Shown piece after piece: positions 13,894-42,936 of a stretch of 64,000 nt of DNA. A model generated the notes under the pieces. That model was given only the letters and a program-made list of their open reading frames with translations. It was not told where the DNA came from and made no database searches. The position numbers and the translations under genes were made by a program. Each line of letters begins with the position of its first letter. Position 1 is the stretch's first letter. Source of the stretch: a virus. The stretch is from positions 30,249 to 94,248 of IMG/VR virus record IMGVR_UViG_3300045918_000131. One strand, 5' to 3'.

Positions 13894-15492
13894 TTAAGTT
13901 TCGAGTAATTCGTCACGTTCGGTTAAATCTTTTGCGGGTACAAATCCTCGATTTTTAGTATAAATCATATGGTCGGCGGTGCATCTTATTATCTTACCGT
14001 TAGGACTTTCAATCTCATATAAATCTGTCGAAACCCCTGTTTGCGCTGCGGCTGATACTTTACTCCATACTACCTCTTCGCCGTTAAATGATTTAACATA
14101 AACTTCCGTATAATATCCTAACTCATACTTGGCAATAAAGTCGTCTAATCTGACTATTTCGGCAAAATTTCCGGCGTTGTTAGACGCAATTTCAATGTTA
14201 GTATTGCCAGTCAAACAGAGATTCGACGAATAAATCTTTTCTTTAAAAGGAGTATGTTTATTCATCGTATCAAACTGATGTAAGTAATGTACTCCGGTTT
14301 CGTAACTTTGTGTTAATGCACCTAATAATAATTCACGAGCATTAACTTTAACCTTTACTTTATCTGAATTTGCGTAAAGTGTATATAATTCTTCAAATTT
14401 ATTAGGGTCTTTATTATATTGTGCTTCGTATAACTCCGGCACATCCCCGTACGAAAATAAGTAAATATCTTCATTCTTAGCTACTTTACGTGCAAAAAAT
14501 TTATTACTACCAAAACTATAATGACATCCTCCTATTTTTTTATTAAGCGGAGTCATCGGGTGTCTCAATTTTTGTATCACTTCGACTTCGGGGTCAAATG
14601 CAGTGTAATGTACTGTGCTCGCGCCCCCACGCCCATTTTGTAAATTAGCTTGTATTGCACCTACCATTGCTCTATAGTATGGCAACTTACCTTGATGTTG
14701 AATAATTCCGTTACGAATCGAGTCACCTAGAGATCTAGTCTTAATATGAGTTCCTATACCAGCACTCATACATGTCATCATATATGCAATATGATCTCCG
14801 GCCGCCAAACTGGCAGCTGAATCCTGTGTAGTATAAACACAACATGAAGCATAACCGTTTAACTGTGTACCTAAATTAACAAAATTTGGTGTTGGACAGT
14901 TAATCCTATTGAAACTAAAATGATCATACCATGCTTTTACATGTACTAAACGTTCTGCTGATGGCTCATCTTCTGCTAACGCCATAGCCATACGCATGTA
15001 TACAAATTGAGGAGATTCATACTCTTTACCTGTTACTTTGTTGCGTAATGCATACTTATAACGAATTTGATTTAATTGATAATGAGGATATTTTAAATCT
15101 CGTTTGTGGTCTATAATTTTTTCTATTGCTGTATATTCGTCAGTTGAATAATGCATGTCTACCATTAAACCAGCAGTCTGTAATTCTTCATGTAAACTTT
15201 GTACTGATGGTCTACCATATGGATAAATTACACGTTCAAGTAAGTAAGTATATAACCTACCTGCCATTCTATTATACTCCCAGGTTTTTCTACTTAAACA
15301 AGTACTAATTAAGGTCTCTTGTAATTGTTGACTAGTACAAGTTTCAGGACATTGTACTACTGCATCTATTACTATGATAGACCAATCTACCTGTGATCCT
15401 AATGTTTTTGCAGCCCATGTTCCCCAACCATTTACTTTTGATGGAGAAAAATCTTCAACTCTCCCGTCGCGTTTTACGATCTTTTTTATCAT
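13894..15492 (-). CDS. nrdA: NrdA N-terminal part followed by an N-terminal split-intein fragment
   Basis: 532 residues, RBS AGAAGG. 1-425 are the class Ia large subunit: ATP-cone at the N-terminus ('IKKIVKRDGRVEDFSPSK'), the redox Cys in 'GYASCCVYTT', and a stop of the extein at 'YSSNL'. From residue 426, 'CLTGNTNIEI' opens a Hint N-domain with the block-B motif 'CTADHMIYT' near 505, ending at RDELLET and a stop codon. With the C-part the mature protein would be 766 residues (E. coli 761), all core blocks present. Confidence 0.93.
   Translation of the reverse strand: MIKKIVKRDGRVEDFSPSKVNGWGTWAAKTLGSQVDWSIIVIDAVVQCPETCTSQQLQETLISTCLSRKTWEYNRMAGRLYTYLLERVIYPYGRPSVQSLHEELQTAGLMVDMHYSTDEYTAIEKIIDHKRDLKYPHYQLNQIRYKYALRNKVTGKEYESPQFVYMRMAMALAEDEPSAERLVHVKAWYDHFSFNRINCPTPNFVNLGTQLNGYASCCVYTTQDSAASLAAGDHIAYMMTCMSAGIGTHIKTRSLGDSIRNGIIQHQGKLPYYRAMVGAIQANLQNGRGGASTVHYTAFDPEVEVIQKLRHPMTPLNKKIGGCHYSFGSNKFFARKVAKNEDIYLFSYGDVPELYEAQYNKDPNKFEELYTLYANSDKVKVKVNARELLLGALTQSYETGVHYLHQFDTMNKHTPFKEKIYSSNLCLTGNTNIEIASNNAGNFAEIVRLDDFIAKYELGYYTEVYVKSFNGEEVVWSKVSAAAQTGVSTDLYEIESPNGKIIRCTADHMIYTKNRGFVPAKDLTERDELLET
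13897..14217 (-). other. N-terminal split-intein segment (107 codons)
   Basis: Begins at Cys (TGT, 14217-14215) right after Ser-Ser-Asn-Leu. Hint blocks A (CLTGNTNI) and B (TADH) are visible. Separated by 104 bases from the gene carrying the C-intein; that spacer has stops in the reading frame and no endonuclease gene. Confidence 0.9.
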
Positions 15493-21454: not shown

Positions 21455-22129
21455 TTAGCCAATAACCCAAGGGTCAACGATAACGGGAGTATTATTTCTT
21501 AGCATGTAATTACCTTGATGTAAGTCAAAATTCCAACCGTAATCGTATCCTATTCTGTCTATATCAAACACTGTTTGAACTAGTAACTCTAAATGTTTTC
21601 CTGCTATCTTTTTGAGTTGTTTGTAGTATATTACATTATCAAAAGAACTATCAAACATATATTCGTAATAACCTTCATGGATGTTCGATCTAGAGTAGTA
21701 TGCACTATTCTCCGTAATATATTCTGACAGTGATAATAAGGCTTCGCCATACTGTCCGGCTTCTGTTAAACGTTCCATACGTATCTGTAGGTACATACGT
21801 TCGTCAAATATAAACTTCTCAAAACCATCAAACCTTGGCAAAAAAGGATTGTTACTATTTTTACAGTAGTTAGCCCAAAATACAAACATCTCTTGATCGC
21901 TGCTTAATTGTGAACTACTTTCACCAAACGTGTTGGTTTCTTTTGTTCCAAATATTTTAAGTACCTTACCTGTTCCAGGCTCTAAAAAAGCTGTTTGATC
22001 GGCTCCAGCAAAACCAAGTTGTTTATATCCTTTTTGACGTAGTACTTTGTATATATCAGAATGTGTGGAAGACTATTCTTCTAGATTTTCTTCCTCAATT
22101 ATTGATACCTTTAGATCTTGTATTCTCAT
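21455..22129 (-). pseudogene. Aminoglycoside-phosphotransferase-like kinase broken by an in-frame TAG
   Basis: The frame opens at ATG 22129 with a CTS-like leader (MRIQDLKVSIIEEENLEE), hits TAG at 22073-22075, then continues in the same frame to 21455. The continuation resembles the intact gene at 28945: 'GTGKVLKIFGTK', 'SSDQEMFVFWANYC', 'LQIRMERLTEAGQYGEALL', and the catalytic loop 'FDLHQGNYMLRNNTPVIVDPW' (HxD replaced by D-L-H-x-x-N). Either a recent pseudogene or a read-through product. An internal ATG at 21889 could give only the C-lobe. Confidence 0.7.
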
Positions 22130-24339
22130 TTAACTACTCCTTTTGCAACAAACATTGTAAAATCTTCTATAGATAACGGTTTACTAAAAAGATATCCTTG
22201 ATAATACTTACAACCGTAATCAAACAATGTTTGTCTTTGTTCTTCGGTCTCGACACCTTCGGCAATAACTTCTAACCCCAAGCCCTGTGCCATTGCTATA
22301 ATAGTTTTAACTATAGCTTTATCGTTGTTACTGAATTGTAAATCTCTAACAAAAGATTTATCTATTTTGAGCTGATTTAATGGTAATATTTTTAAATATT
22401 GTAAGGAAGAAAATCCGGTTCCAAAGTCATCTAATGAAAAGTGTATACCTAGTTTCCTTAATTGATTAATGACAGATATTGATGTATCTACATTTTCTAA
22501 TAATATACTCTCTGTAGGTTCTAATTTAAGCAATGTTGTGTCGAATTGATATTTATGTATTAATTTATGTACATTAGATACAAAATTAGGATCTAAGAAT
22601 TGTTTTGCACTTACGTTAACAGATATAGTTAATTTTTGCGTAGTAACGTCATCTTTCCATAGCGTTAGTTGCTTACAGGCAGCTTCTAATACCCAATATC
22701 CTATGGGAATAATTAACCCTGTATCTTCTGCTACGGGAATAAAAACTATCGGAGATATTTCTAATTCTTGTTTATTAGAATTCCATCTAAGTAATGCTTC
22801 TGCACCAATTATATTATAATTTTCGTCGACTTGCGCCTGGTAGTGTAATGTAAACTCATTATTGTCAATAGCTGTTCTAAGTTTACTTTCTATATAAACC
22901 CTAGATGTAATATATGCTTGCATTTTTGGATCAAAAAATCGAATTGTGTTTTTACCTGCCTTTTTAGCTTGGTACATGGCAATATCTGCCTGTCTTAATA
23001 TATCATCTACTTCACTAGTTTCTTGATTAAACAATGTGGCACCTATACTTGCAGTTATATTATAACTGCAATTTGGTAATATAATTTCGTCAATTAAAGA
23101 CGTTAAAATTTTATTACTATATAGTTCTACTTGTGCGGCTGCTACTTGTAAGTTAACATCTAAATCGTGTAACATAACTACAAACTCGTCGCCGCCAAAA
23201 CGGGCGACAGTATGTCCTACACGTAAACATTTCTCAATACGCCATGCTACTTGTTGTAACATAGTGTCCCCAATAACATATCCAAGCGACTCGTTCAAAT
23301 ATTTAAAGTTATCTAAATCTATGAATAATACTGCTCCGTACTTATTATTTAACGACGTGTTAGATAAGGCTACCTGTAATCTATCTAATAACAATCTTTT
23401 ATTAGGTAAACGTGTAAGCGTATCATAAAAGGCTAATAATTGTATTTCATCAGCAGCATCTTTATTGATTTTAATATCGGTTACTGTAGCGATGTAATTA
23501 GTTATAGTACCAAAAGAATTTTTAACAGCGGAAATATGTAAATGTTCTGGATATAACTCTCCGTTCTTACGTTTATTCCATATTTCCCCGCTCCAAAATC
23601 CTAGTTTATTAATTTCTGCCCATAGTCTAGTGTAAAATTCTTTCGTGTGTCTACCAGAACTAAAGATTCTAGGGTTCTTACCTAATAGCTCGTGTTCTGA
23701 AAATCCTGTGATATTACAAAAAGATTGATTTACACGTAATATATTAGCTTGAGCATCTGTTACTATCATACCAACTTGCGAATTAAAAATCACAGCGGAT
23801 ATCTTCTCTTCTAAGAATCTTTTATTACGATCCGTAATATCATCTAACATCATGCATAAAGTTGTACCATTTAACGTAGTCTTTAAACGACAGTTAACTT
23901 TACCATGCCTGATTGATTCGTTTAAAATAAAGTCTATATCAATTGAATGTTTTTGTGTATTATTTTTATCTATCATTATACTATCAAAGAAGTGTATCCA
24001 TAGATCTTTATCTGCTATATGTTGTTTAAAACAACACCCAATGGCTGTATTCTTAGTAATTCCCAAAAGTTCGCACCCTGCATTATTGATATCTTGAATT
24101 TCACCACTGATCGACAATGAAAGGTAAGCTATAGGAGCAGTTTCAAACATAGTAACATAATCATCATGCGATTGAATTAATTTTACATGAGATAGCTTTA
24201 ATTCTTCTAGTTGATTTTTTAACTCAAATTGACATTTTTCGCTTTCACGTAAAAGACGCTTGTAATTAACGGTTACTGGGTTAGTATCGTTATCTAAGGG
24301 GTCACATTTGTTTGTATTTGTGTTGTGGATTTTATTCAT
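22126..24339 (-). CDS. PAS-PAS-GGDEF-EAL protein: c-di-GMP synthase/phosphodiesterase
   Basis: 737 residues, no membrane segment. PAS near 60-150 and 170-280 ('FCNITGFSEHELLGKNPRIF'). GGDEF domain 290-460: 'YDTLTRLPNKRLLLDRL', active-site 'ARFGGDEFVVML' intact, but the inhibitory RxxD site is R-V-G-H. EAL domain 475-730: 'GAEALLRW', 'LEPTES', 'SLDDFGTGFSSL', 'LKIDKSFV', 'EGVET', 'QGYLFSKP', all catalytic positions present. It could make or destroy c-di-GMP in the host; which activity dominates cannot be read from sequence. Late octamer upstream. Confidence 0.93.
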   Translation of the reverse strand: MNKIHNTNTNKCDPLDNDTNPVTVNYKRLLRESEKCQFELKNQLEELKLSHVKLIQSHDDYVTMFETAPIAYLSLSISGEIQDINNAGCELLGITKNTAIGCCFKQHIADKDLWIHFFDSIMIDKNNTQKHSIDIDFILNESIRHGKVNCRLKTTLNGTTLCMMLDDITDRNKRFLEEKISAVIFNSQVGMIVTDAQANILRVNQSFCNITGFSEHELLGKNPRIFSSGRHTKEFYTRLWAEINKLGFWSGEIWNKRKNGELYPEHLHISAVKNSFGTITNYIATVTDIKINKDAADEIQLLAFYDTLTRLPNKRLLLDRLQVALSNTSLNNKYGAVLFIDLDNFKYLNESLGYVIGDTMLQQVAWRIEKCLRVGHTVARFGGDEFVVMLHDLDVNLQVAAAQVELYSNKILTSLIDEIILPNCSYNITASIGATLFNQETSEVDDILRQADIAMYQAKKAGKNTIRFFDPKMQAYITSRVYIESKLRTAIDNNEFTLHYQAQVDENYNIIGAEALLRWNSNKQELEISPIVFIPVAEDTGLIIPIGYWVLEAACKQLTLWKDDVTTQKLTISVNVSAKQFLDPNFVSNVHKLIHKYQFDTTLLKLEPTESILLENVDTSISVINQLRKLGIHFSLDDFGTGFSSLQYLKILPLNQLKIDKSFVRDLQFSNNDKAIVKTIIAMAQGLGLEVIAEGVETEEQRQTLFDYGCKYYQGYLFSKPLSIEDFTMFVAKGVVK

Positions 24340-24410: not shown

Positions 24411-25277
24411 TTAATAGTTTGTGGACACAGAATCAAGTGTTTTGAGTTTAATGACATCATCGCCGTCGGTTGTGTCTGATGTCATCAGGTTCAACGTATT
24501 ACGTTTGGAATTCTCAGCTAAGTATTCTAATTCAGGTACACGAGTATGAGTATTATGCGATCCCAATACTACAACGACACGCTTACCAACAGACGTTATT
24601 AGCATTGAAGCAATACAACCACCAGAAGCTCGGATATAACCCGTTTTACTTACAATGAATTTACCAGTACCTACATTGTGATTAGTGTTATTAAATACTA
24701 ACGTTCTAGCATGTATTGACGTCCGATGTCTATGTTTAACATAAATTGCTCTACTAATAGTAATAGAAAAAGAAGAAGTAATAGCAGCTTGTTGAACTTC
24801 TGGATAACTCTGAGCAGCTATTATCGCTAATACTAAGTCGTTAGCTGTTGATACATTCATTATACTCAATCCTGAAGGTTCAACCAATCTAGAATGTATC
24901 ATACCTAAATTCTGTACTTTTGTATTTAACGCCCTAATACATGCTTGTCTACCTCCAGGATAATAATTACATAACATATCAGCTGCTGGATTATTTGAGC
25001 TAACTAACGCCATTTGTATTAATTGACGTCTAGTATAATTTTTAGATACTTTATCGTCTAGATCCTGTTTAGCATCTAATACAATCATAACTGTAATTAA
25101 TTTGCTAATACTTGCTATTGAACGAACTTGATCTGAATTTTCTGATTGAATAACTTTTCCAGAATCATCTGTTACTACCCAGGATTTGGCAGTAATAGGT
25201 ATAGCATAAGCTTGAGCTACTATTGACGACGACAACAACAATAATATAGCACTTGCGGTAAGAATTCTAAACATCAC
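24411..25277 (-). CDS. D-alanyl-D-alanine endopeptidase/carboxypeptidase, S11 family
   Basis: 288 residues. Cleavable signal peptide at 1-24 (ILLLLSSSIVAQAYA). Penicillin-binding motifs in order: SxxK in 'IASISKLITVM' near 57, SxN in 'ALVSSNNPAADML' near 95, and KTG in 'VSKTGYIRASGG' near 205. Resembles PBP7/PbpG, which trims peptidoglycan crosslinks in the periplasm. Its domain is complete. Could loosen the wall for release or alter the wall of the infected cell; unusual in phages. Confidence 0.9.
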   Translation of the reverse strand: MMFRILTASAILLLLSSSIVAQAYAIPITAKSWVVTDDSGKVIQSENSDQVRSIASISKLITVMIVLDAKQDLDDKVSKNYTRRQLIQMALVSSNNPAADMLCNYYPGGRQACIRALNTKVQNLGMIHSRLVEPSGLSIMNVSTANDLVLAIIAAQSYPEVQQAAITSSFSITISRAIYVKHRHRTSIHARTLVFNNTNHNVGTGKFIVSKTGYIRASGGCIASMLITSVGKRVVVVLGSHNTHTRVPELEYLAENSKRNTLNLMTSDTTDGDDVIKLKTLDSVSTNY

Positions 25278-25470: not shown

Positions 25471-26409
25471 TTACTGTTCTTCTTTCAATGGAGACCACAA
25501 CATAGATTTACTACCTTTTTTGATAGCATTGAACCCGTTCTTCCGGTAGAATCTGGTCAACGCCGCCTGGCTCACTCTACCTTTATCCCAAGGAAATAAG
25601 GTTAACACAATACTATCATTATGTGCTAATTGCTTTAATATAGTTAATGCTTTTTCACCAACCCCTTGTCTTTGCGGATCAGCCATAATCCATTTAATCT
25701 CAACTGCATCTTTCTTCGTCATACTTGGCTCTAATTCAAATACTGCAAACTGCGATGCTTGTTTTTCATCTTCTGGCCTGATATATTTACCAGTTTCATC
25801 CCATGCCATTACACGTTGGTTATCAGCATATGGCCATTCTTGAAACTGTGCATAGATCTTTTTAATCCACTCTTTAGCTTTATTATTGCCACCAATTTTA
25901 ATACGTATTGGCTCATCAGGTGTATTATCTACATATGGTTCATATTCTTCATCTAATTCCTCATAATCATATTCGCCATTAATTAAATATCCCTTACCAC
26001 CACAACGAAGACATGTTTCTTCATACTCTATGCCAGATCCATAACACATCGGGCATTGTTCTTCATCGGCATCTTCGTCTAATTTGTGACAATATCCCGC
26101 ACCATCTTCATCTAACTCTGTATATTCATCTCGGGCACGGCTTACGTCATTCATCTTACGCATTAACGCTAACCCAAGTTCCTCACTTCCATTTGTGTAT
26201 TCCATAACTGCTTTTGATAAGCGTCTAAACGACATAGTAGCTCTACGTTTTAATTCACCAGTTGTTGGGCATTGACCATTAGCATCCATTGGGGAATTTC
26301 TGGGACGTAGTGCATCGTTTGCAGCACGTTCTTTTTCGTGTAATACCCAGATGTATTCAGGCACAAAACTTGGTGCTATTGTTTCGTTTATTATTTCAGA
26401 TATCTTCAT
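25471..26409 (-). CDS. CTS-leader protein: DnaJ-type zinc finger plus GNAT acetyltransferase
   Basis: 312 residues starting MKISEIINET (ATG 26409). Helical region to about 110; a DnaJ-like zinc finger near 118-140 with two CxxCxGxG motifs (CPMCYGSG, CLRCGGKG); then a GNAT fold near 215-310: 'VEIKWIMADPQRQGVGEKAL' (acetyl-CoA pyrophosphate loop Q-x-x-G-V-G) and 'ALTRFYRKNGFNAI'. Likely packaged in the head and cleaved after I-N-E; would acetylate a host target. The target is unknown. Overlaps the next gene by a few bases. Confidence 0.75.
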   Translation of the reverse strand: MKISEIINETIAPSFVPEYIWVLHEKERAANDALRPRNSPMDANGQCPTTGELKRRATMSFRRLSKAVMEYTNGSEELGLALMRKMNDVSRARDEYTELDEDGAGYCHKLDEDADEEQCPMCYGSGIEYEETCLRCGGKGYLINGEYDYEELDEEYEPYVDNTPDEPIRIKIGGNNKAKEWIKKIYAQFQEWPYADNQRVMAWDETGKYIRPEDEKQASQFAVFELEPSMTKKDAVEIKWIMADPQRQGVGEKALTILKQLAHNDSIVLTLFPWDKGRVSQAALTRFYRKNGFNAIKKGSKSMLWSPLKEEQ

Positions 26410-26411
26410 TC

Positions 26412-27017
26412 TCAATACCCTTCTTTCTTAGCTATTTCTTTCCACTTAGTGGTTAAAGCGGCGGCAATATCTACTGGCATTGCCCATCCATTACGTCTCA
26501 TTATACTTATTAGTTTAACTGCTTGCTCTCTATCACTACTACCTGGCTTACGTGCATTCGCAAAGTCGTTCTTTAAATCATAATCATTGACATTATCGTC
26601 CCATGCACTTACCATGTTTCTACGCAGTCTATCTGCACGGTCTGTTGAATTAGTTTTACTACTCTTATATACTAATTCTAACCATGGTTCAAGGTAACTA
26701 CGTCCAGAGTATGTTTTACCTGTACGTTCTATTCCAGATAAGGTTTCTCTTGGACCTGTAATTGGTACTACTTTGCGGGTATCTTGTAATTGCCAAGCTT
26801 TCTTATCTTCATAAAAGTATGTTTTAATACCATGTGTTTTAGCTACTATTAATAGTTTTCTAACTGCTGCAGGTATTCCTTCACCCCAATTTTTACGTTC
26901 TTTTGCTGTCTCCATAGGCGTAGCATATACATGAATTGCAGTAATACCATTACCTACTGGCATTGATGGTTTTTTACTGAAGATTCTATCCTCAAATATA
27001 AACTCATTTTCTCTCAT
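26412..27017 (-). CDS. CTS-leader protein of unknown function
   Basis: 201 residues starting MRENEFIFED. Its leader shares the bases CTATCCTCAAATAT with the genes at 36828 and 38296. After the leader come 'ITAIHVYATPMETAKERKNW' and a basic helical C-terminal half ending KWKEIAKKEGY. Soluble. No recognised domain. Confidence 0.65.
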   Translation of the reverse strand: MRENEFIFEDRIFSKKPSMPVGNGITAIHVYATPMETAKERKNWGEGIPAAVRKLLIVAKTHGIKTYFYEDKKAWQLQDTRKVVPITGPRETLSGIERTGKTYSGRSYLEPWLELVYKSSKTNSTDRADRLRRNMVSAWDDNVNDYDLKNDFANARKPGSSDREQAVKLISIMRRNGWAMPVDIAAALTTKWKEIAKKEGY

Positions 27018-28944: not shown

Positions 28945-29595
28945 TTATTTTCCTGAATGCCTAGGTACTACCCAAGGATCTAATATTACAGGAACATTAC
29001 CTCTCATCATAAAATTTTTCTCATGTAAATCAAGATGCCATTTCATCTTTGTTGAAATTTTTAATAATGAATTGATAGTTGTAGCTAATTTTAATAATCT
29101 ATCATTTCCTAATGCTTCGTGTAGTGTGTTATAATCCTTGGGGTATCGTACATTAAAATAATGAACAATTTTAGGAACATCAAACCCCATCGGTTGTCCT
29201 TCTTTAAATTCATCTGCTAATGTCCATGCCGCCCATCCTAATTTGGTTGCTTGTGTTAACCGTTCCATTCTAATTTGTAAATAAGTACTTTGATCAAATA
29301 CAAAACGTTCATATCCAGAGAACTTAGGTAAAAATTCATTGTCTACGTTTTTCATACAGAATTTGGCCCATATTATGAACATTTGTTGATCTCTACTTAA
29401 TTGTTTACCTTCAGAACCCTTTGTATATGATTTAGTACCAAATATCTTTAACACGTCTTTTGAATTAGGCTCAGAATATGCACTTGCGTCAACACCTTTG
29501 CCTATTCCCTTATATCCTTGTTTTGTTAGTTCAACATCGATACTTGGATTAAAATCGCTCCATTCGTCTAAATTAAACATTTCGTTTAATAACAT
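28945..29595 (-). CDS. Aminoglycoside-phosphotransferase-like kinase
   Basis: 216 residues. Leader MLLNEMFNLDE is divergent from the CTS form. Kinase features: Lys in 'DVLKIFGTKSY' (beta3-like), 'SRDQQMFIIWAKFC', 'YLQIRMERLTQATKLGWAAW', and the catalytic loop 'HLDLHEKNFMMRGNVPVILDPW' with H-x-D-L-H-x-x-N and D-P-W. Likely phosphorylates a small molecule or protein. Intact relative of the broken genes at 21455 and 40962. Confidence 0.75.
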   Translation of the reverse strand: MLLNEMFNLDEWSDFNPSIDVELTKQGYKGIGKGVDASAYSEPNSKDVLKIFGTKSYTKGSEGKQLSRDQQMFIIWAKFCMKNVDNEFLPKFSGYERFVFDQSTYLQIRMERLTQATKLGWAAWTLADEFKEGQPMGFDVPKIVHYFNVRYPKDYNTLHEALGNDRLLKLATTINSLLKISTKMKWHLDLHEKNFMMRGNVPVILDPWVVPRHSGK

Positions 29596-29608: not shown

Positions 29609-30016
29609 TTAATATTTACTAATTTCGCCAGCAAATGCCATACACGATATCAACATTATGAATGCAAATATTATCAATAATATATATTTACTTTCTGATA
29701 CATCTAATACTTCTTCAACATTAATATCTACTTGTATATTGCGTTGAATTGCATTACTAATGAATGGTGGTTCTGATATCAAATGAGTATATTCTGAATA
29801 TAATAAGTCATGTTGTTCGATTAAATCTAAAATTATTTTAGCATGTGCTAATGGAAATCCTTGTCTATCTAAACGATTATTAAATCTAGATTCGCTGTTC
29901 TGTAATATACCTAACATGTACTTTCTACAATCAGAAGACCCCCAAGTCTGATGGATAGTAGCTGAAACATGTGGGTAACGTTTATCAAACTCTACAGGTA
30001 TTATTATATTGACCAT
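29609..30016 (-). CDS. Tail-anchored membrane protein, paralogue 1
   Basis: 135 residues. A soluble N-domain with 'RYPHVSATIHQTWGSSDCR' and 'RQGFPLAHAKIILDLIEQHD', then one membrane helix at the C-terminus ('ILLIIFAFIMLISCMAF'). Shares the Y-P-H, W-G-S, G-F-P and Q-H-D landmarks with 31840-32226. Its function is unknown; the anchor suggests insertion into the host inner membrane. Confidence 0.65.
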   Translation of the reverse strand: MVNIIIPVEFDKRYPHVSATIHQTWGSSDCRKYMLGILQNSESRFNNRLDRQGFPLAHAKIILDLIEQHDLLYSEYTHLISEPPFISNAIQRNIQVDINVEEVLDVSESKYILLIIFAFIMLISCMAFAGEISKY

Positions 30017-31363
30017 TTATTTCTTAGGATGTAACTGTTTATATTCTAACGTCGTTAGTACAGACCCGTCTTTATTAATGATTATCTCTTCGCTTACCCA
30101 TCTTGCTAGCCTTTTAATTATGCTATCTTCTCTTCTAGCTTCTTGAGCTACAACGTAAGATATTACTTTATTAATATTACGTATAGTTGGTGTTTCTTCT
30201 TGATCGCTAGCATAGTCAGAACACATGCTCTTTAGATATCTTGCTTTAATATCAACGGCGCTAATTAGATCTTTGTACATAACTTCGGCATCTGTGTTAT
30301 ATGTGAAGTACGACTTACCGTCTTCAGCATAACGTTCCCAATCTGTATCTCCATTTGCACTTATATAACCTTCTGAACGTACCCATTCAGAATAACTGTC
30401 GTCGTATGATTCCCATTCAATAACAATGTCATTGATGTAAAAGTCTAGTGCTTTTTCTGCTACTTTATCTAATATTGATTGTAAAAACTCATCATCTGCA
30501 AAAGCTATATAATCTTTAATAGCTGGTTCTCTTTCTGCGAACCAAGGTACTAAGTTACCGAATCTAGTTGATAATAAAGTAACTTCGTTCACTGGGTCGT
30601 CTCGTTCGTCCATAAATTGTCCAGATTCAAAGTGTAGTTGATACTTTTCTTCGTCGTCGTTGGGTTGTTTGGGAATTAAAATATACATTAATCCTTCTCT
30701 GTTATAATGATCAAACATGTTATTACCACTCATTGTGGCTGTACACCAATCAGGAGCACGTTCTTTTGACCTAACTAATTTACTACCATCCCACACTAAG
30801 CGAGCCGCAGTTCTACTTCCTGCAGTATCTTCTGGTACTACAATGACTACTTCTGTGGTTCTTAGAACCACAGAAAATTTACCAGGATCAGCTAATGCAT
30901 CTATTTCTATTAGTGCATCGACATAATTACTATCTGTTGCTATATTTCCAAGTTGACCCATATTAAATCTATTAATGTCTCGATCCGAAACCGGTAATAT
31001 ATTCTTCATCTTCATATTATGGAAAGTAGTTAACCATTCTTTACCACGTGTGGTAATATCTTCAAATTTGACTTGTATGTTGTCTAGAGGAGTTGTATAT
31101 ACTTTAACTAACCATTGAACATATTGTTTATTTTTTGTAGGGTCTACATTCTCTAATGACATTAGAACATCAGCAATTATTCGTTGTTTAGTACCATCTG
31201 TAATTGGCACTGCGTTAGAATTAACCAATTCCCCACGTGCGGTACCTAACCCGGCAGGTAAGAATCTAGATTTATCAAAACGTAACGAGTTCAACAATTT
31301 TTCGCCAAAATTATGTGCTGTTTTAGTCTGGTTATATTCTAATATAAATTCTTTAGCTCTCAT
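30017..31363 (-). CDS. Large CTS-leader protein of unknown function
   Basis: 448 residues starting MRAKEFILEY. Contains 'APDWCTATMSGNNMFDHYNR', 'GLMYILIPK' and 'YQLHFESGQFMDERDDPV', a block I associate with a phage protein family that lacks an assigned function. The C-terminal third is helical and charged. Good leader with I-L-E. A candidate internal head protein. A near-perfect inverted repeat lies within it at 30851-30875. Confidence 0.7.
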   Translation of the reverse strand: MRAKEFILEYNQTKTAHNFGEKLLNSLRFDKSRFLPAGLGTARGELVNSNAVPITDGTKQRIIADVLMSLENVDPTKNKQYVQWLVKVYTTPLDNIQVKFEDITTRGKEWLTTFHNMKMKNILPVSDRDINRFNMGQLGNIATDSNYVDALIEIDALADPGKFSVVLRTTEVVIVVPEDTAGSRTAARLVWDGSKLVRSKERAPDWCTATMSGNNMFDHYNREGLMYILIPKQPNDDEEKYQLHFESGQFMDERDDPVNEVTLLSTRFGNLVPWFAEREPAIKDYIAFADDEFLQSILDKVAEKALDFYINDIVIEWESYDDSYSEWVRSEGYISANGDTDWERYAEDGKSYFTYNTDAEVMYKDLISAVDIKARYLKSMCSDYASDQEETPTIRNINKVISYVVAQEARREDSIIKRLARWVSEEIIINKDGSVLTTLEYKQLHPKK

Positions 31364-31821
31364 TTAACTTCCTTCATAAGTCTCCAATCAGAGAATCTTA
31401 AATTAAGTAATACTAAGAAATTATTCTTTTCCTGTTCAGTATTAAATAATATAGTTCGCTGAGTATTGTCGGTTACTGGTCCTACTAATTCTGGAAATCT
31501 CCGCAACTGACCAGACACTGTATTTTTAACTATTATTTGTCCATTGGAGTCAACCGATATAAGAATATGATCATCTTTAATGTCTGCTATTGATAAAAAC
31601 TTATGTCCTGTGATTCCGGACCACCCTAAAGTAACATAGAAATATGCATTGCTGATAATAGGATCAAGTTGATAATTAACAATAAAAGTCTGAATTTCAT
31701 CACCTTCAACTGTACTTTCAATTATGAGACTGTTTTCTAATAGATATTGATTAAAACCTCGGTTAAATATTAAATTAAATTCGTTAGTAAAGTCTTCGAT
31801 GATAAATTCGTTAGCTCTCAT
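31360..31821 (-). CDS. CTS-leader protein, 150-170 residue family
   Basis: 153 residues starting MRANEFIIED. Second member of the family with 27017 and 38949 (ends 'NNFLVLLNLRFSDWRLMKEV'). Nineteen bases of its leader coding sequence recur inside the 32228-35863 gene. A late octamer lies 23 bases upstream. Confidence 0.7.
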   Translation of the reverse strand: MRANEFIIEDFTNEFNLIFNRGFNQYLLENSLIIESTVEGDEIQTFIVNYQLDPIISNAYFYVTLGWSGITGHKFLSIADIKDDHILISVDSNGQIIVKNTVSGQLRRFPELVGPVTDNTQRTILFNTEQEKNNFLVLLNLRFSDWRLMKEVK

Positions 31822-31839: not shown

Positions 31840-32226
31840 TTAACTATTTATCCAGTGTAAGCTAATTACTTTAACAATTACTATGGATATAAGTACGGTT
31901 ATAATAGCTGCAATCCAAAATAGTAAATTGTCGTGTTGAACTATTGTACGTTTTGGTCTAATACTTAAAAAATAAGGTTCTTCTGGAAGTATACATGTAG
32001 GGAATAAATCGTCGTGTTGATCTATGAGTTGCATGATGAATTTAGCATCCTTCATCGGAAATCCGCTTCTTGCATTTCTAAAGTCAACATCTCTACCTTT
32101 ATCTTGTAACAAGTCTAATAGGTATTGTCTTCCTTCTATTGAACCCCATAATAATTGAAGTTTTGTACCTATGTGTGGGTATTTTTCAAAAAACTCAGTT
32201 TCTTCTAATGTTGTAATATTATACAT
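31840..32226 (-). CDS. Tail-anchored membrane protein, paralogue 2
   Basis: 128 residues. 'KYPHIGTKLQLLWGSIEGR', 'SGFPMKDAKFIMQLIDQHD' match paralogue 1. C-terminal helix 'LLFWIAAIITVLISIVIVKV' anchors it in a membrane. It sits between two CTS-leader genes but has no leader itself. Confidence 0.65.
   Translation of the reverse strand: MYNITTLEETEFFEKYPHIGTKLQLLWGSIEGRQYLLDLLQDKGRDVDFRNARSGFPMKDAKFIMQLIDQHDDLFPTCILPEEPYFLSIRPKRTIVQHDNLLFWIAAIITVLISIVIVKVISLHWINS
31845..31852 (-). promoter_or_regulatory. Late promoter octamer GATAAATA
   Basis: Minus strand, just inside the end of the 31840-32226 gene and 23 bases ahead of the ATG at 31821. Confidence 0.55.
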
Positions 32227-32227
32227 G

Positions 32228-35200
32228 TTAAATCGTTAATACCCAATAACTTCCATCTTTAAATTTAGTATTCTTAATTTCTGTAAATCCTACTTTTCTC
32301 AACATACTTTTACTACCTATATTATTAGCTTCTACGTATGCTTTAATACTAACGAAGTTATGCTCTTTAACTTGTGCTATAATATAAGTTAATAACTCGG
32401 TCCCAAACCCTTCGGATACAGGAGATACATCTATACGATTCAAATACGCCTCTCCTGTATTTTTATTAAAATCGACCATTGCTCCGCCTCGCAATATATT
32501 ACCTCCGCGAGCTTTATGTACCCAATTCTGATGTTTTTCTTGTAAAGTAGCTTCAAAATATGCTCGTATTACCCAATCTCCAGACATTGTAATATCTAAC
32601 CTATCTGTTTTGTTATCTTCGATGATAAATTCGTCACATGCATCAATCTCATTTAATTTGTGTTCGGCCAATGATAGTTCATTGTCCTCCCTATGCTTTT
32701 TAAATTCTGCAATTTTATCAAATATACCAGAATTTCGTAATACCTTAAACGTCACATTTTCCACAGAAAATTCTCCATTTTCATCTAATCCTGATTGGCG
32801 CATCTTCTTTATCTTCGCACGCAATACATCTAAATCAGTCTCGGCAGATTCTGGGTTCTCTTTAATAATAGTGTCAATCTGATTAACAATATCCTCTACT
32901 TTGCTTAATACTGACGCATCATCAACTGTTATTTTATCGTCAAATTTAGGCCTTTTAATCCACTTATCAGTTACTAACGAGTATATTCCAGTTGCCACTA
33001 ATTGACTATCTTTTTTTGCTACATCCTCAGCGTATAACTCTACAGTGTAACCCTTAATGGTAATGTCATGATTACTATTCCATAACGACTTCTTAGCTAT
33101 TAAAAAAGGCTCAAGTAATGTACAATCAGATTCAAGTCTTGATTCAACAATTACATGTAAATCAACATCGCTTTTATCGGTGTAATTAAATGCACAATTA
33201 GATCCTGTAATAATATAATCAACTATTTTTAATTGTTTAATATCTACAAACTCCGAAAATGCATTAGCAATATCGCCTAGTTTTTCTTTAACATCTGCTT
33301 TTAATTCATACCCATCCCATAATTTTGGGTTTAGTTCTTTATGTAGGGATATATTAGGAAGAAGCGATTCTGTTAACTCATCAGGTACACGTTTTAATAT
33401 AAATTGTACTGCTGGTTCGCCAACAGATGATGTAACCTCGGCTGACCGATCAAACACGAAGCCAGGGAAATATTTGACTGCATCTTTTGCAAATCTTGCA
33501 TATAATTTAATTCGGCTCGGATCCTTAGATTTGCCAGTAAAATTCATTGTTCTAAACGGAATCAATTTTCCTGTATATAAATCAGGAATATTCATAACTC
33601 GTAATACTAAATCACGCACTGTAGCAAATACACGGAAAGCGTCGCCGGTATTTTTAACGTCCGAGCTTACTGCTGTAATTTTACCATTTGTATCTCTTGC
33701 AGTAACTAAACCAAATGAAATATTGGCAGTTTTATTACCCAATTGATCTTCTGATTCGACCTTAATAGTAACAGTATAGTCATTACCCGACTCTGTTTTA
33801 AATGTAAATATTTTCTTGCCGATGGGATTAATCTGATTTTTATTATTTAACATTGTGGCAGTATATGGATTATTAGCTAATTCGTTTAACGGCTCAGATA
33901 AATTATCTAACACTTTCCTAGCAATAGGCAATACCGTATTAATATTTGGTATAGTAGTACCATCATAACCAATACTTAGTACCTCTTGCACTGTCATTTG
34001 TACTTCCCTAGCATCGCCTTCGTTTGGTAATTCTGCCAATATGTCACCAATTGTAGATTCATTACCAGTTGCATCTATTATTGTGCCATCTGGTGCTTTA
34101 ACATAAGCATGTATTAACACATTGCATTCTAGATTATAGTCTTCCTCTACTAGTGCATATATTGGATATCCGGTTAATTTATTTAACGCTACTGCAAATA
34201 TAGGACAATCGCCTTCAAAATATTTATGATTTTGGTGACCAAAATCATAAATCGATTCATTAAGGTCATTGACCCCGATATATGCCTTTATTTGTATGTC
34301 TCCACGTACCTTAGCCGCATTAGCTCTATGATAACCATCAATGATCCAATTATTGTTACCATCTATTACAATTGGTGGATATTCTGTAGTGTTTTTAGCA
34401 TAAGCGTGAACTTTTTCTTGTTTAACACAAGAGTGTTGTAATGATAAATTATTTATATCAATAGTGTTTAACACAAAATAGTCAAACGAGTTAATCCACT
34501 CTAAAGTATTAATCGTATCTTTATCGTTGTCTACCAGACCTAAATTATCGGGGCCGGTATGTAGTTTTTGAATTAATTGTTCAATGAAAGTAGGAGATAC
34601 GCTATTGCTATTCTCAATTAATAAGTTATTAGTAACCGAAAATGAAATAGGATCTTCGGTAATATATCTATTTTTACTTAAATCAGAGCTAACATTCTTA
34701 AATTGTAATACACCGGCAGGATCATATATTATACCCCTACTATCAATGCACCAATAATGAGGAATTAAATGCCAAGATTCTGAATACTTTGATTGTTCTA
34801 TCCAATGTTTTCTATCTTTAGAATCGTTGAAATTTAAACCACTTGATCTAAATTCGGTCTTCATATCAGGAGTAAAATCAGATTTATCATGTACCACTGA
34901 ATCTACTCTAAATTCTCCACGTACACGCTTTAAATTAACTCCTTGTTTAGCGGCATAGCTAATAAAATCTAAGCAACAAGGACCGCAATTATCTCTAATA
35001 GAATAAAATTTAATTTCTTTATCAGTGAGTGACGATAAGAAGTTATCTACTAGTGATATATTGGTTGTTAGATCTTCGGTATTGGTTAAATCTTCAACAA
35101 TGTGACTCTGCTTACGTTCTGTTTGAATTTCAGATCTTAATGATTCAACTTTAGAACGTAGTTGTCTTAGATTTAACCCGGTTTGCTTTTCTTGTTTAAA

Positions 35201-35863
35201 CAGTGTAATCATCTGTTTAACTTTTATAGGATCTGCACCAGATTTAATAAATTTAAGTTCTGCGTCTCGATAATCTTCGTTGATATCTAATTTATCCTTT
35301 AATTTAAAACTTTGTTTAAACCATAAATAGATATCAACAGTAGAACAATGTTTATCAAACAATTGCCTTAATAATTGTATAAATTGCACACGATCTTTAT
35401 GTTGTAGATTATCCCAATTACCTGCATCTCGACGTAATTGACGCAATAAAGGTTTACTATAGATTTTTAAATAATCCTCAAGTTGCCAAAAAAATCTCAC
35501 GTCATCAGAATGACTATTATTTGAACTAAAACCGCGTAGATAACGATTAATTTGAAATAATGGAATATTTACATCACTTTCAACTTTAATATCGTGTTTA
35601 AACACGTCTTGATTATTTAATACAGCTAGTAGGTTAGCAAGATCAGTTCCTGCATAATGCATCGCATCATACGTATTGTATTGCATAGTTTGATCTGCAT
35701 ATTTTTTAGCCCAAGAGTTATTTTGCCATCTAATAATTTCAAGCATCATGAATATGAGATATATAATCTCAGCTATCTCAGATGCTGGTCTATTTTTTAG
35801 ATCTGTAGGTCCGAAAAATAGCCGTGCTTCTACTAACTCTTTAATAAAGGGTAACTTTTTCAT
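32228..35863 (-). CDS. Multidomain (polyvalent-type) protein with internal CTS-like motif
   Basis: 1211 residues. N-terminal helical region 1-285 with leader-like 'LPFIKELVEARLF'. About 290-400: cysteine-protease-like domain ('RDNCGPCCLDFISYAAKQG', later 'HYWCIDSRGIIYDPAG'). About 495-545: ParB-type 'PIVIDGNNNWIIDGYHRAN'. About 550-620: second Cys-protease-like block ('GDCPIFAVALNKLTG', 'LIHAYVKAPDGTIIDATG'). About 870-960: nucleotidyltransferase ('YTDKSDVDLHVIV'). About 1095: 'CDEFIIED', then a GNAT domain ('RIDVSPVSEGFGTELL'). Likely injected and possibly cut into units. Late octamer at 35885. Confidence 0.75.
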   Translation of the reverse strand: MKKLPFIKELVEARLFFGPTDLKNRPASEIAEIIYLIFMMLEIIRWQNNSWAKKYADQTMQYNTYDAMHYAGTDLANLLAVLNNQDVFKHDIKVESDVNIPLFQINRYLRGFSSNNSHSDDVRFFWQLEDYLKIYSKPLLRQLRRDAGNWDNLQHKDRVQFIQLLRQLFDKHCSTVDIYLWFKQSFKLKDKLDINEDYRDAELKFIKSGADPIKVKQMITLFKQEKQTGLNLRQLRSKVESLRSEIQTERKQSHIVEDLTNTEDLTTNISLVDNFLSSLTDKEIKFYSIRDNCGPCCLDFISYAAKQGVNLKRVRGEFRVDSVVHDKSDFTPDMKTEFRSSGLNFNDSKDRKHWIEQSKYSESWHLIPHYWCIDSRGIIYDPAGVLQFKNVSSDLSKNRYITEDPISFSVTNNLLIENSNSVSPTFIEQLIQKLHTGPDNLGLVDNDKDTINTLEWINSFDYFVLNTIDINNLSLQHSCVKQEKVHAYAKNTTEYPPIVIDGNNNWIIDGYHRANAAKVRGDIQIKAYIGVNDLNESIYDFGHQNHKYFEGDCPIFAVALNKLTGYPIYALVEEDYNLECNVLIHAYVKAPDGTIIDATGNESTIGDILAELPNEGDAREVQMTVQEVLSIGYDGTTIPNINTVLPIARKVLDNLSEPLNELANNPYTATMLNNKNQINPIGKKIFTFKTESGNDYTVTIKVESEDQLGNKTANISFGLVTARDTNGKITAVSSDVKNTGDAFRVFATVRDLVLRVMNIPDLYTGKLIPFRTMNFTGKSKDPSRIKLYARFAKDAVKYFPGFVFDRSAEVTSSVGEPAVQFILKRVPDELTESLLPNISLHKELNPKLWDGYELKADVKEKLGDIANAFSEFVDIKQLKIVDYIITGSNCAFNYTDKSDVDLHVIVESRLESDCTLLEPFLIAKKSLWNSNHDITIKGYTVELYAEDVAKKDSQLVATGIYSLVTDKWIKRPKFDDKITVDDASVLSKVEDIVNQIDTIIKENPESAETDLDVLRAKIKKMRQSGLDENGEFSVENVTFKVLRNSGIFDKIAEFKKHREDNELSLAEHKLNEIDACDEFIIEDNKTDRLDITMSGDWVIRAYFEATLQEKHQNWVHKARGGNILRGGAMVDFNKNTGEAYLNRIDVSPVSEGFGTELLTYIIAQVKEHNFVSIKAYVEANNIGSKSMLRKVGFTEIKNTKFKDGSYWVLTI
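34222..34252. repeat. 31-base palindrome inside the polyprotein gene
   Basis: ATTTATGATTTTGG and its exact inverse separated by three bases. It encodes part of the ParB-to-protease junction (YDFGHQNHKYF). No T run and no promoter context; may be fortuitous or an RNA/DNA structure. Confidence 0.6.
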
Positions 35864-37989: not shown

Positions 37990-38296
37990 TTTTATCCTTG
38001 ATCAGCTGTTTATACAATTTGGTACATTCAACTAATAGTTGTCTATATTCTTGAAGTAAAGCAAATTGATCAGGATCTGTAGTCAACATCGTTTTATACC
38101 AATTATCAGTTGAACCATACATACGAGTTACTTTAGTAATATCCATAATTAGTCCATGTAACTCTTCTAATTGATTAGAACTTGTTATTTCTTTAAACCT
38201 ATTAGTTAAGTTATCAATATGTAATTCCGGATGTTTCAGCGTAATTATTAATAGTAAAGTTTCTCTATCCTCAAATATGAACTCGTATGCTCTCAT
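37982..38296 (-). CDS. CTS-leader protein, family D (intact copy)
   Basis: 104 residues starting MRAYEFIFED, followed by 'RETLLLIITLKHPELHIDNL' and 'ITKVTRMYGSTDNWYK'. All-helical, soluble. Intact counterpart of the broken 36508-36828 gene, with very high identity over most of its length, so a recent duplication. Function unknown. Confidence 0.7.
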   Translation of the reverse strand: MRAYEFIFEDRETLLLIITLKHPELHIDNLTNRFKEITSSNQLEELHGLIMDITKVTRMYGSTDNWYKTMLTTDPDQFALLQEYRQLLVECTKLYKQLIKDKNG

Positions 38297-38952
38297 TTGT
38301 ATACATTACCGATGTAATTAACCCAATCCTCGCTAACTATGTATACTTGATTACAATTAACCATTATTTCGTTATTAGAAGCTATTGCTTGCTTTAACCC
38401 AGTATTTTGAACGTACTTATTATTATTCATTAACAAATTTAACTTGCCTTGTGTTAAGTCGCTAGTATCTACATCAGACTCTAGGTAAGAGAATAAATCT
38501 TCAATTTCACTAGACCAACAATAATTAAAATTACCAACCGGAATCATAATGACGGTAGATCCGTTGTCATGATTCCCCCAACCAGTAGCATATTGATTTG
38601 CAGTGAAACGCGATCCTGTACAAAATATTGATTGACTTCGGTAAGCAATACCTGTTTTCCTCACAAACCAATCATTTAACATTTCATGTATATAATGCCT
38701 AGTGTCACGAGGCATACGAGTCAAATCTACATTAATTAATTTAATAGGTTCTTCTTCCTCGTCCCAGTTAAAATCGGCCGCACCACGCCACAATGGGTTA
38801 ATAACTAGAGCTTGTTGTAATCCTCCTATCATATCCAAATACGGAGCACAATCTCGACGTAAGATAGTAACTACCTTTTCTGCAAGTTCTTGTTCTTGTC
38901 GTGCCGGATTAGTGTCAATTTCAACAGCTTCTAATAATTCTTTAATTCTCAT
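38293..38952 (-). CDS. CTS-leader protein, ART-like family A copy 1
   Basis: 219 residues starting MRIKELLEAV. Core pattern shared with 41579 and 42238: 'NPLWRGAADF' (candidate catalytic Arg), a D-T-R-H helix, 'IAYRSQSIFCTGSRFTANQY' (S-T-S-like region, A-x-x-Y) and 'GNFNYCWSSEIEDL'. R-G, S-x-S and an acidic C-terminal strand are the three ART landmarks, but the usual E-x-E is not exact. Function inferred. Confidence 0.6.
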   Translation of the reverse strand: MRIKELLEAVEIDTNPARQEQELAEKVVTILRRDCAPYLDMIGGLQQALVINPLWRGAADFNWDEEEEPIKLINVDLTRMPRDTRHYIHEMLNDWFVRKTGIAYRSQSIFCTGSRFTANQYATGWGNHDNGSTVIMIPVGNFNYCWSSEIEDLFSYLESDVDTSDLTQGKLNLLMNNNKYVQNTGLKQAIASNNEIMVNCNQVYIVSEDWVNYIGNVYK

Positions 38953-40961: not shown

Positions 40962-41579
40962 TTAAAAGCTACCATATTTATTTTTTGCAATGTTCTGTAG
41001 AGCTTGCACTAACTCTGTAGATACAATAGGGTCAATTAATACTATTGCACCGTTTTTATCTTGCATAAAGTTACGAATTAAAAAGTCTACACTGTATTGT
41101 TTTACCTTATAGTTTTGCAAGAATTCTACTAGTTGTGCAAATAACCCATCTAGATGCTTATCTAAATATTTGTTGAATCTATCAACCCTGCTACGATCAG
41201 TTTTATATCCAATAACGTCAAAATATTGAGTAATAGCCTTCTTGATTACCCGTTTATTATCAGTTGACAGTTGTGATAGTTTTGGCATTTGTATAACATA
41301 TACTGTCATATCGCTTAAAGCTCTACTTTTTTGATGATATGCATCAAAACTATCTATACATTCTCCTATACCTAATCCACAACTATGTACTAACCAGTCT
41401 CTTTTCATGTCATCGCAGGTTAGTACTAGTACGTTGCTGTCACACTTATCTAATACAACAGAAGTAGCACCTTGTCCTATGACAGGGTACTGCTTATATT
41501 TGTCGGGAATAGAACTTTTTCATAGTGCTGTTCCTATTCTATTCCCCTCGTTTACTTTAACAAACTCATATATTCTCAT
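40962..41579 (-). pseudogene. CTS-leader kinase broken by an in-frame TGA
   Basis: ATG 41579 gives MRIYEFVKVN; TGA at 41520-41522 (codon 20) is followed in frame by a kinase-like sequence to 40962: 'YPVIGQGATSVVLDK' (Gly-rich loop), 'VQALQ' end, and 'VDFLIRNFMQDKNGAIVLIDP' (catalytic loop and metal-binding Asp, in a form without HxD). An internal ATG at 41408 lies after the Gly-rich loop. Likely a pseudogene; read-through not excluded. Confidence 0.7.
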
Positions 41580-42241
41580 TATTTTCTCATCATAGTATCT
41601 AACGCATCTAGTATAGAGTTAAGTTTATTCCTATTTCTGGTTTTAAGCAAGTAATATCCGGCTGTTGCATGTACCATAACTTCATTTCCGCTGTCGATAC
41701 CTGCTATTAAGTCGCTAGTTTGATAATTACTAATTGTTATTTGATTCTGTATATACGGCTTCGCACTGATTCTTCTAACTTTTAATTCCTTTAAATATTC
41801 AGCATCAAGTAAGTCAAAAGTTAGATCTTTAACCCGTGGAGACCAGCAGAATTTAAAATTTCCCACTGCAAATAATGCACATGTTGCGCCGTAATCATTA
41901 GCTATTTGCGTATTACCTGACCCAAAGGTTGCGTTAGAGCGGAATCTAATTCCTGTCATTTCTAAAAATATGTCGTCCACTATATTGTGAACGTTAATAT
42001 CAGTATCTCGTGGTTTACGATTAACAGGGCAGCCTTGATGTGAAAAAAACGGTATATTATCTTTGAAATTGACACCGCGATATAACATATTAAACGTATA
42101 TCCTCCTAATTCTCGTAACCAAGGTTGACAATCTTCAAATATAATAGTTGCGATATCGTGTGCAGATTGTTCTGACGTATTTTCTTGATTATCAGACTGG
42201 GGGTCTATTTCAACTGCTTCTAATAATTCTGTAATTCTCAT
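41579..42241 (-). CDS. CTS-leader protein, ART-like family A copy 2
   Basis: 220 residues starting MRITELLEAV, the same leader as 38293. 'FNMLYRGVNFKD', 'FRSNATFGSGNTQIANDYGA', 'VGNFKFCWSPRVKDL' match the family pattern. Overlaps its upstream neighbour (42238) by 4 bases. Function inferred as for copy 1. Confidence 0.6.
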   Translation of the reverse strand: MRITELLEAVEIDPQSDNQENTSEQSAHDIATIIFEDCQPWLRELGGYTFNMLYRGVNFKDNIPFFSHQGCPVNRKPRDTDINVHNIVDDIFLEMTGIRFRSNATFGSGNTQIANDYGATCALFAVGNFKFCWSPRVKDLTFDLLDAEYLKELKVRRISAKPYIQNQITISNYQTSDLIAGIDSGNEVMVHATAGYYLLKTRNRNKLNSILDALDTMMRK

Positions 42242-42936
42242 ATTATCATCCTTAACTTACGGCGTATATTTTGTACAGCTACACACCATGCGTTATCTAC
42301 TATTAACGCAGATTTTGCAACAATCATTATCTCGTGTCGAGAATAAATAGCGTTAGTTAAATCTTTATCTAATAGAAATTCGCTATCTTCTAAGAACTGT
42401 ATAATGTTATCATCTTTTAGATAATGTATAGCTTGTTTACGGTCTCCTATCGTCGGTCCTCCTACAAGGTATGCATATTCGCTTAATGCTTCATACATAT
42501 CTTGAATTTTAGGAGACCAACAGAAATGAAACTCGCCTTCTGGTATTACTCTAACTAACTTCCCATAGGTAGAAGCATTTGGGCTACTACCTGTTACAAA
42601 CAACGAAGAGCTTCTAAAACGATATCCTGTATATTTGTTAAACCAATCGTCGATTAAATGGTGTGCTCTATCTGGAGTATCTAAAGGAGTACGATTAGAG
42701 TTAATAGAAATTGATTTTACTGGTTTATCCATACCCATATCAGACGTAAATTCATTATGATATACTCCACGCCATAACGGATCTTCAAATAGCGCATCAT
42801 CGATGCCTCCTGCAGCAATAATATACGGTAAACAGTTAGTAGTTATGTGAGCTTCTATCTTCTCGTACTGATTTAGTATTCTCTGCTCTTCATACCCTAA
42901 CGACGGGCTTTCGTTAATTATTTCGTGAATCCTCAT
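42238..42936 (-). CDS. CTS-leader protein, ART-like family A copy 3
   Basis: 232 residues starting MRIHEIINES. 'DPLWRGVYHNEF', 'YRFRSSSLFVTGSSPNASTY', 'EGEFHFCWSPKIQDM'. Of the three copies this has the clearest leader (cleavage after I-N-E). First gene after a late octamer at 42960-42967, so it heads a late transcript of CTS genes. Confidence 0.62.
   Translation of the reverse strand: MRIHEIINESPSLGYEEQRILNQYEKIEAHITTNCLPYIIAAGGIDDALFEDPLWRGVYHNEFTSDMGMDKPVKSISINSNRTPLDTPDRAHHLIDDWFNKYTGYRFRSSSLFVTGSSPNASTYGKLVRVIPEGEFHFCWSPKIQDMYEALSEYAYLVGGPTIGDRKQAIHYLKDDNIIQFLEDSEFLLDKDLTNAIYSRHEIMIVAKSALIVDNAWCVAVQNIRRKLRMII

Follow-up and report, generated by a model that had tools for sequence, protein, structure and literature searches.

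A leader-rich gene block in a T4-related phage

The window (the whole 64-kb stretch of DNA analyzed here) comes from a viral contig of 94 kb in IMG/VR. The virus is a large T4-related phage, and the nearest relatives of its DnaB/gp41-type helicase were found in the Pseudomonas jumbo phage PA5oct and related phages (48% identity over 93%). All features described below are on the minus strand. An open reading frame at 32228-35863 encodes a multidomain protein of 1211 residues and 138 kDa, with coordinates and length exactly as given in the original prediction. Shortly downstream of this gene, and near one another, are two small paralogs, each with a hydrophobic C-terminal segment (29609-30016 and 31840-32226). 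Elsewhere, the large subunit of ribonucleotide reductase is seemingly split between two open reading frames (12662-13789 and 13894-15492) with intein-like ends, CLTGNT... at the end of one and ...VHN|C near the start of the other.

Genes located between 18065 and 45125 frequently begin with short leaders of the forms M[KR]..EF[IL]xE, M[KR]I.E[IL][IL].E and similar. Under a strict definition, leaders were present in 12 of 39 genes of this block and in none of the 106 genes elsewhere on the contig (p = 3.5e-8); the number expected in the block by shuffling was 0.06. The block matches in position a PA5oct block with many proteins annotated as detected by ESI-MS/MS. The T4 protease gp21 cleaves after L/I-X-E, and IPIII needs no more than its first ten residues to be packaged (PMC9026906). 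Because their pattern matches this T4 capsid-targeting sequence (CTS), we read the leaders of the 18-45 kb block as T4-type capsid-targeting sequences. The 1211-residue protein carries a leader of its own that ends in [L/I]-x-E (MKKLPFIKELVE|A, residues 1-12, 35828-35863). This predicted targeting and cleavage sequence is conserved in relatives of the adjoining N domain, where its consensus is M..FI.EL[TV]EAR[LM]F.

Other genes of the block were also inspected. The gene at 28945-29595 gave a weak match to a T7 gp0.7-type protein kinase (phrog_15752, E = 7e-4), and a related family is standalone in L047 and fused in L042 and L049, with junctions IDE|Y and VDE|S. A leader protein encoded at 25471-26415 combines a CxxC zinc ribbon (DnaJ-like, weak) with a C-terminal GNAT domain (weak); with L-D-E sites on both sides of the ribbon, it is possibly a second small polyprotein. 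Paralogs with MRI.E[LI][LI].E leaders (38293-38952, 41579-42241 and 42238-42936) are putatively ADP-ribosyltransferase-like by eye, and the two that were tested both match phrog_11975. By reading, the gene at 22126-24339 encodes a PAS-GGDEF-EAL-type protein of 737 residues, which is unusual for a phage, and a D-Ala-D-Ala carboxypeptidase-like gene (24411-25277) comes after it.

Domain composition of the 1211-residue protein

The leader is followed by an N domain of unassigned fold (residues 13-196, 35276-35827) that ends in INE|D, has relatives in 33 viral contigs and occurs as a standalone protein in other phages. A short basic stretch recognized by sequence reading comes next (residues 197-257, 35093-35275, pI 9.7, ending IVE|D); no homolog of it was found. 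Two Cys-protease-like blocks flank a ParB-like block. Block 1 (residues 258-417, 34613-35092) bears the motif NCGPC...H.W..D..G.I.DP and ends in ITE|D and LIE|N. Block 2 (residues 537-661, 33881-34255), also identified by motif reading, has two weaker sites after it, LSE|P and LNE|L. The motifs of both blocks are readable, as had been predicted, but they are backed by neither a Pfam or PHROG family match nor a fold: an AlphaFold model of residues 190-833, computed without an alignment and covering both blocks and the ParB-like region, gave a pLDDT of 35 and no usable fold. The ParB-like block (residues 418-536, 34256-34612, ending LNE|S) matched phrog_1033 (E = 0.29) and gave one tblastn match, to phage Tunturi_5 (E = 4e-4), that stops close to residue 532. 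These matches agree weakly with the predicted ParB-type motif, and strong family support was not found. The X domain (residues 662-832, 33368-33880, ending LTE|S) has PA5oct gp135 as its only homolog in a search of 41 records, and gp135 is annotated as detected by ESI-MS/MS.

The two C-terminal domains were identified with greater certainty. The Pol-beta-type nucleotidyltransferase (NT; residues 833-1082 including a disordered tail, 32618-33367) matches phrog_36119 over residues 832-1065 (E = 1e-54), was modeled by AlphaFold and has a Pol-beta signature, G-S...S-D-x-D, that is largely invariant across 37 homologs. Its relatives in viruses comprise 579 confirmed stretches, of which the best 80 were retained. 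Several of the standalone NT proteins (L121-L190) begin with a minimal M-[LI]-x-E (such as MLTEY and MIQEY), a leader of 4 residues. The GNAT acetyltransferase (residues 1083-1211, 32231-32617) matches PF00583 above the Pfam gathering score (residues 1102-1193, E = 7e-5), and its model resembles RimI-type acetyltransferases by PDB comparison; NCBIfam yielded weak RimI matches only, and PADLOC found nothing. Both domain assignments of the original prediction are thus borne out, NT by profile and signature and GNAT by profile and fold. Scans of viral contigs and tblastn against phages returned no homologs of block 1, the X domain or the GNAT domain. Overall, one chain holds at least two supported effector-type domains, NT and GNAT, with a weaker ParB-like candidate.

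Candidate cleavage sites at or close to domain boundaries

We found [IL]xE sites at residues 12, 196, 257, 403/417, 536, 657/661, 832 and 1072/1082. The first marks the start of the protein, and every domain boundary has a site at or close to it. The motif also occurs inside domains, including folded parts (907, 1002 and 1028). Some borders can be set without reference to the motif: the end of the N domain, where standalone homologs stop near residue 187, the end of the ParB-like block (532), the X domain (from gp135), the start and end of NT, and, from AlphaFold, the start of GNAT. In each case a site lies no more than about 20 residues away. Borders between the protease-like and ParB-like blocks were not set independently of the motif, since AlphaFold gave no usable fold for this region. 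In 74 unique strict leaders, the P1' position is usually occupied by S, G, D, A, N or Y, and this preference is shared by sites at fusion junctions (p = 0.0013) and, more weakly, by the boundary sites of the 1211-residue protein (p = 0.035, with boundaries assigned by the analyst).

The internal leader EFIIE|D (residues 1078-1083, 32615-32632) is a predicted cleavage site directly at the start of the GNAT domain. The original prediction held that the sequence before this domain, CDEFIIED, is identical to the leader of the gene at 31360-31821. That leader reads MRANEFIIED; the identity therefore stands for the six residues EFIIED and does not extend to the full CDEFIIED. At the DNA level, 19 nt of the internal site (32616-32634) are copied exactly in the leader (31793-31811). 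Only 0.05 matches were expected even with 3 mismatches, and synonymous reshuffling reached a 19-nt identity in 1 of 200 trials; because of this, the sharing of EFIIED exceeds chance. In the predicted proteins of the contig, EFI.E occurs nine times: in seven N-terminal leaders, at the present site and in one other gene. We also asked whether the motif is buried in a fold, an outcome that the original prediction had named as refuting it. In an AlphaFold model of residues 833-1211, EFIIED falls in a linker with pLDDT below 50 (residues 1069-1094), which comes after the last helix of NT and before the first strand of GNAT, outside any folded domain. Judging from the DNA identity, the internal copy is probably recent in origin, perhaps too much so for selection to be visible. 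For this reason it is the weakest single site from which to argue selection, yet it is the most striking.

Leader motifs persist at the junctions of fused proteins

We then considered relatives in which the same domains occur alone or in other combinations. The N domain is standalone with a leader in L017, L022, L041 and L047, is joined directly to NT in L002, L003, L009, L050 and L046, and lies at the C-terminus of another protein in L019 and L026, where the leader is retained inside the chain (...FLQELVEARMF). Compared with these relatives, the window gene has additional middle domains and the C-terminal GNAT. A similar pattern is seen in the GGN family, whose standalone members start with MILTEGGN or MILSEGGN and whose fused members carry ILTEGGN or MITEGGN internally.

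A curated test covered 31 distinct fused junctions from 7 families. We used leader-bearing queries in place of an all-against-all junction list, which was noisy from shadow ORFs. Bearing in mind that these junctions were picked from families already known to have leaders and are partly interrelated, and that the motif is short, [IL].E was present at 23 of 31 junctions compared to 21% of same-length control windows from the same proteins (p = 3.6e-10), and [ILV].E at 29 of 31 (94%) compared to 28% (p = 2.8e-14). In 400 trials with shuffled junction residues, the frequency of [ILV].E had a mean of 49% and a maximum of 71%. Most decoy motifs were not enriched; the reversed motif was, but less so. 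At 20 of the 31 junctions, the glutamate lies no more than two residues from the end of the leader in the standalone relative. When the test was repeated without curation, on filtered genes and with a leaderless control, [IL].E was found at 25 of 43 junctions with a leader-bearing standalone relative and at 2 of 16 without a leader (p = 0.0017); fusions of leaderless proteins had [ILV]xE in 5 of 16 cases, which is the background level.

Some exceptions were observed. L046 ends in a GNAT-like domain of its own, and the junction leading into it has no [IL]xE; the motif is absent at the junction in the L160/L174 group and in L106. We ruled out that exceptions are due to phages lacking gp21, since G046, one of the exceptions, encodes it. 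Taken together, the idea of cleavage is supported beyond the single GNAT site. For the predicted cleavable internal leader, this support is comparative, consisting of sites at or near every boundary that are kept in fused relatives, and is not direct evidence of cleavage.

Protease and virion evidence in related phages

Neither gp21 (PF03420) nor gp23 was found on the 94-kb fragment. The closest relatives (G001, G002 and G004), whose records are or may be fragments, contain no gp21 and no credible gp23; in G001 only a 30-residue gp23-like fragment was found. The open reading frame concerned (L197 10159-10473; G001 C1:68363-68452, minus strand) encodes 104 residues, with the 30-residue match to the gp23 family at E = 1.7e-8. 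It lies away from recognized head genes and is possibly a fragment or mimic of a capsid protein. PA5oct has an annotated gp21 (gp331), and PF03420 was detected in five records with fused or leader-bearing relatives (G003, G006, G018, G034 and G046). Of those carrying fusions, G003, G006, G034 and G046 encode both gp21 and gp23. By reading, FLVE|NAS in PA5oct and YLAE|SAT in G006 are located near the expected gp23 maturation site.

The PA5oct block adjoining the gp41-type helicase corresponds to the leader block, and its products are largely annotated as detected by ESI-MS/MS. By analogy, this annotation and that of gp135 support a virion location, although the annotated set also includes non-structural enzymes. 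Across PA5oct, having a leader is not associated with detection by MS (17/93 vs 31/123).

A proposed capsid-targeted polyprotein and its alternatives

From these sequence features we infer packaging, cleavage, injection and an effector or enzymatic function. We consider it moderately probable that the 1211-residue protein is a polyprotein that consists of putative effectors, is targeted to the capsid and is processed in trans by the prohead protease. The N-terminal leader MKKLPFIKELVE|A would carry the entire chain into the prohead core, like the capsid-targeting sequences of T4. During head maturation, a gp21-type prohead protease would remove the leader and cut the linkers after [I/L]-x-E, at residues 12, 196, 257, 403/417, 536, possibly 661, 832 and 1082. 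This would release the N domain, the two Cys-protease-like domains, the ParB-like domain, the X domain, the nucleotidyltransferase and the RimI-like GNAT, and the freed, folded domains would stay in the head, enter the cell with the DNA and modify host targets. The fragments would have calculated masses of 22.1, 7.2, 18.5, 13.4, 32.7, 28.5 and 14.6 kDa and would begin at A13, D197, D258, N418, S537, S833 and D1083. The gene may have grown by fusion of leader-bearing genes, with leaders turned into internal cut sites, and repeated leader DNA may itself promote such shuffling. Whether, in T4-like and jumbo phages at large, capsid leaders serve as modular joints, so that fused effector genes yield polyproteins sorted once and diced in the head, is a conjecture that could go either way.

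The leader might instead target a polyvalent protein that is packaged uncut, its internal sites being unprocessed relics of fusion. T4-type targeting requires just the first leader (PMC9026906), N4 packages its virion RNA polymerase without processing it according to Iyer et al. (PMC5512222), and the leader before GNAT looks recent. Relics, however, should decay, whereas the sites persist at junctions in proteins that are mostly 30-60% identical, far above the shuffled and leaderless controls, with the P1' preference retained; we regard uncut packaging as rather unlikely. Chance and composition, in the form of glutamate-rich linkers and a three-residue motif in a protein that may act early and never enter the head, are favored by the high [ILV].E frequency in shuffled junction windows and by the PA5oct leaders not being associated with virion detection. 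This we find improbable: the observed frequency exceeds all 400 shuffles, glutamate sits where the leader would place it, at -1/-2, in 20 of 31 junctions, leaderless fusions stay at background, and leaders are confined to a single gene block, the PA5oct counterpart of which is for the most part ESI-MS/MS-annotated.

Very improbable, in our estimate, is self-processing, in which the chain would be cleaved in cis by its own Cys-protease-like domains. The C...H...D-like motifs of these domains, read from the translation, and the processing proposed for the metallopeptidase (MPTase) domains of other polyvalent proteins (PMC5512222) speak for it. Against it, neither family nor structure supports protease activity, the same kind of linker sites occur in L002, L009 and L050 without these blocks, and the site fits the gp21 consensus and the P1' profile of leaders. 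A prohead protease acting in trans is the likelier cutter.

If the polyprotein reading is true, the prohead protease, beyond maturing the capsid, also frees injected enzymes, and one targeting signal suffices for equimolar delivery. The rule [IL]xE|[SGDANY] between domains could then find injected phage effectors missed by all family models, and the polyprotein logic proposed earlier of polyvalent proteins would become testable by proteomics in cultured phages.

Comparison with known systems

The T4 internal proteins and Alt, whose CTS is cut by gp21, share a short leader at the N-terminus, with [L/I]-x-E as its last residues (PMC9026906, PMC3012670), and the leader pattern seen here, MRANEFIIE, is very similar to the 10-residue CTS of IPIII. 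The T4 internal proteins are putative effectors carried in the head, as is proposed here (PMC9026906, PMC3012670), but they lose a terminal leader, whereas the present protein has predicted cut sites between several domains, as in a polyprotein. The gp21-like protease of phiKZ and SPN3US extensively cuts packaged and ejected head proteins at x-x-E (PMC9026906, PMC10052503). The phiKZ motif differs, however (S/A/G-x-E, PMC13282480), and the sites found in SPN3US remove N-terminal propeptides, or the C-terminal one of the protease itself, and do not separate enzymatic domains.

Polyvalent proteins such as P1 DdrB likewise combine numerous effector-type domains within a single phage polypeptide, among them GNAT, Pol-beta NTase and ParB-like domains (PMC5512222), and the analogy with polyproteins was already drawn for them by Iyer et al. 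in 2017 (PMC5512222). The term polyvalent, which the original prediction applied to this protein, describes its logic well. Processing of polyvalent proteins is ascribed to an embedded metallopeptidase, frequent but not universal; no such domain was found here, and the sites fit a trans-acting prohead protease. The literature searched, which largely leaves subscription journals uncovered, contained no account of prohead-protease sites located between effector domains. The proposed polyprotein would combine the logic of T4 internal proteins with that of polyvalent proteins.
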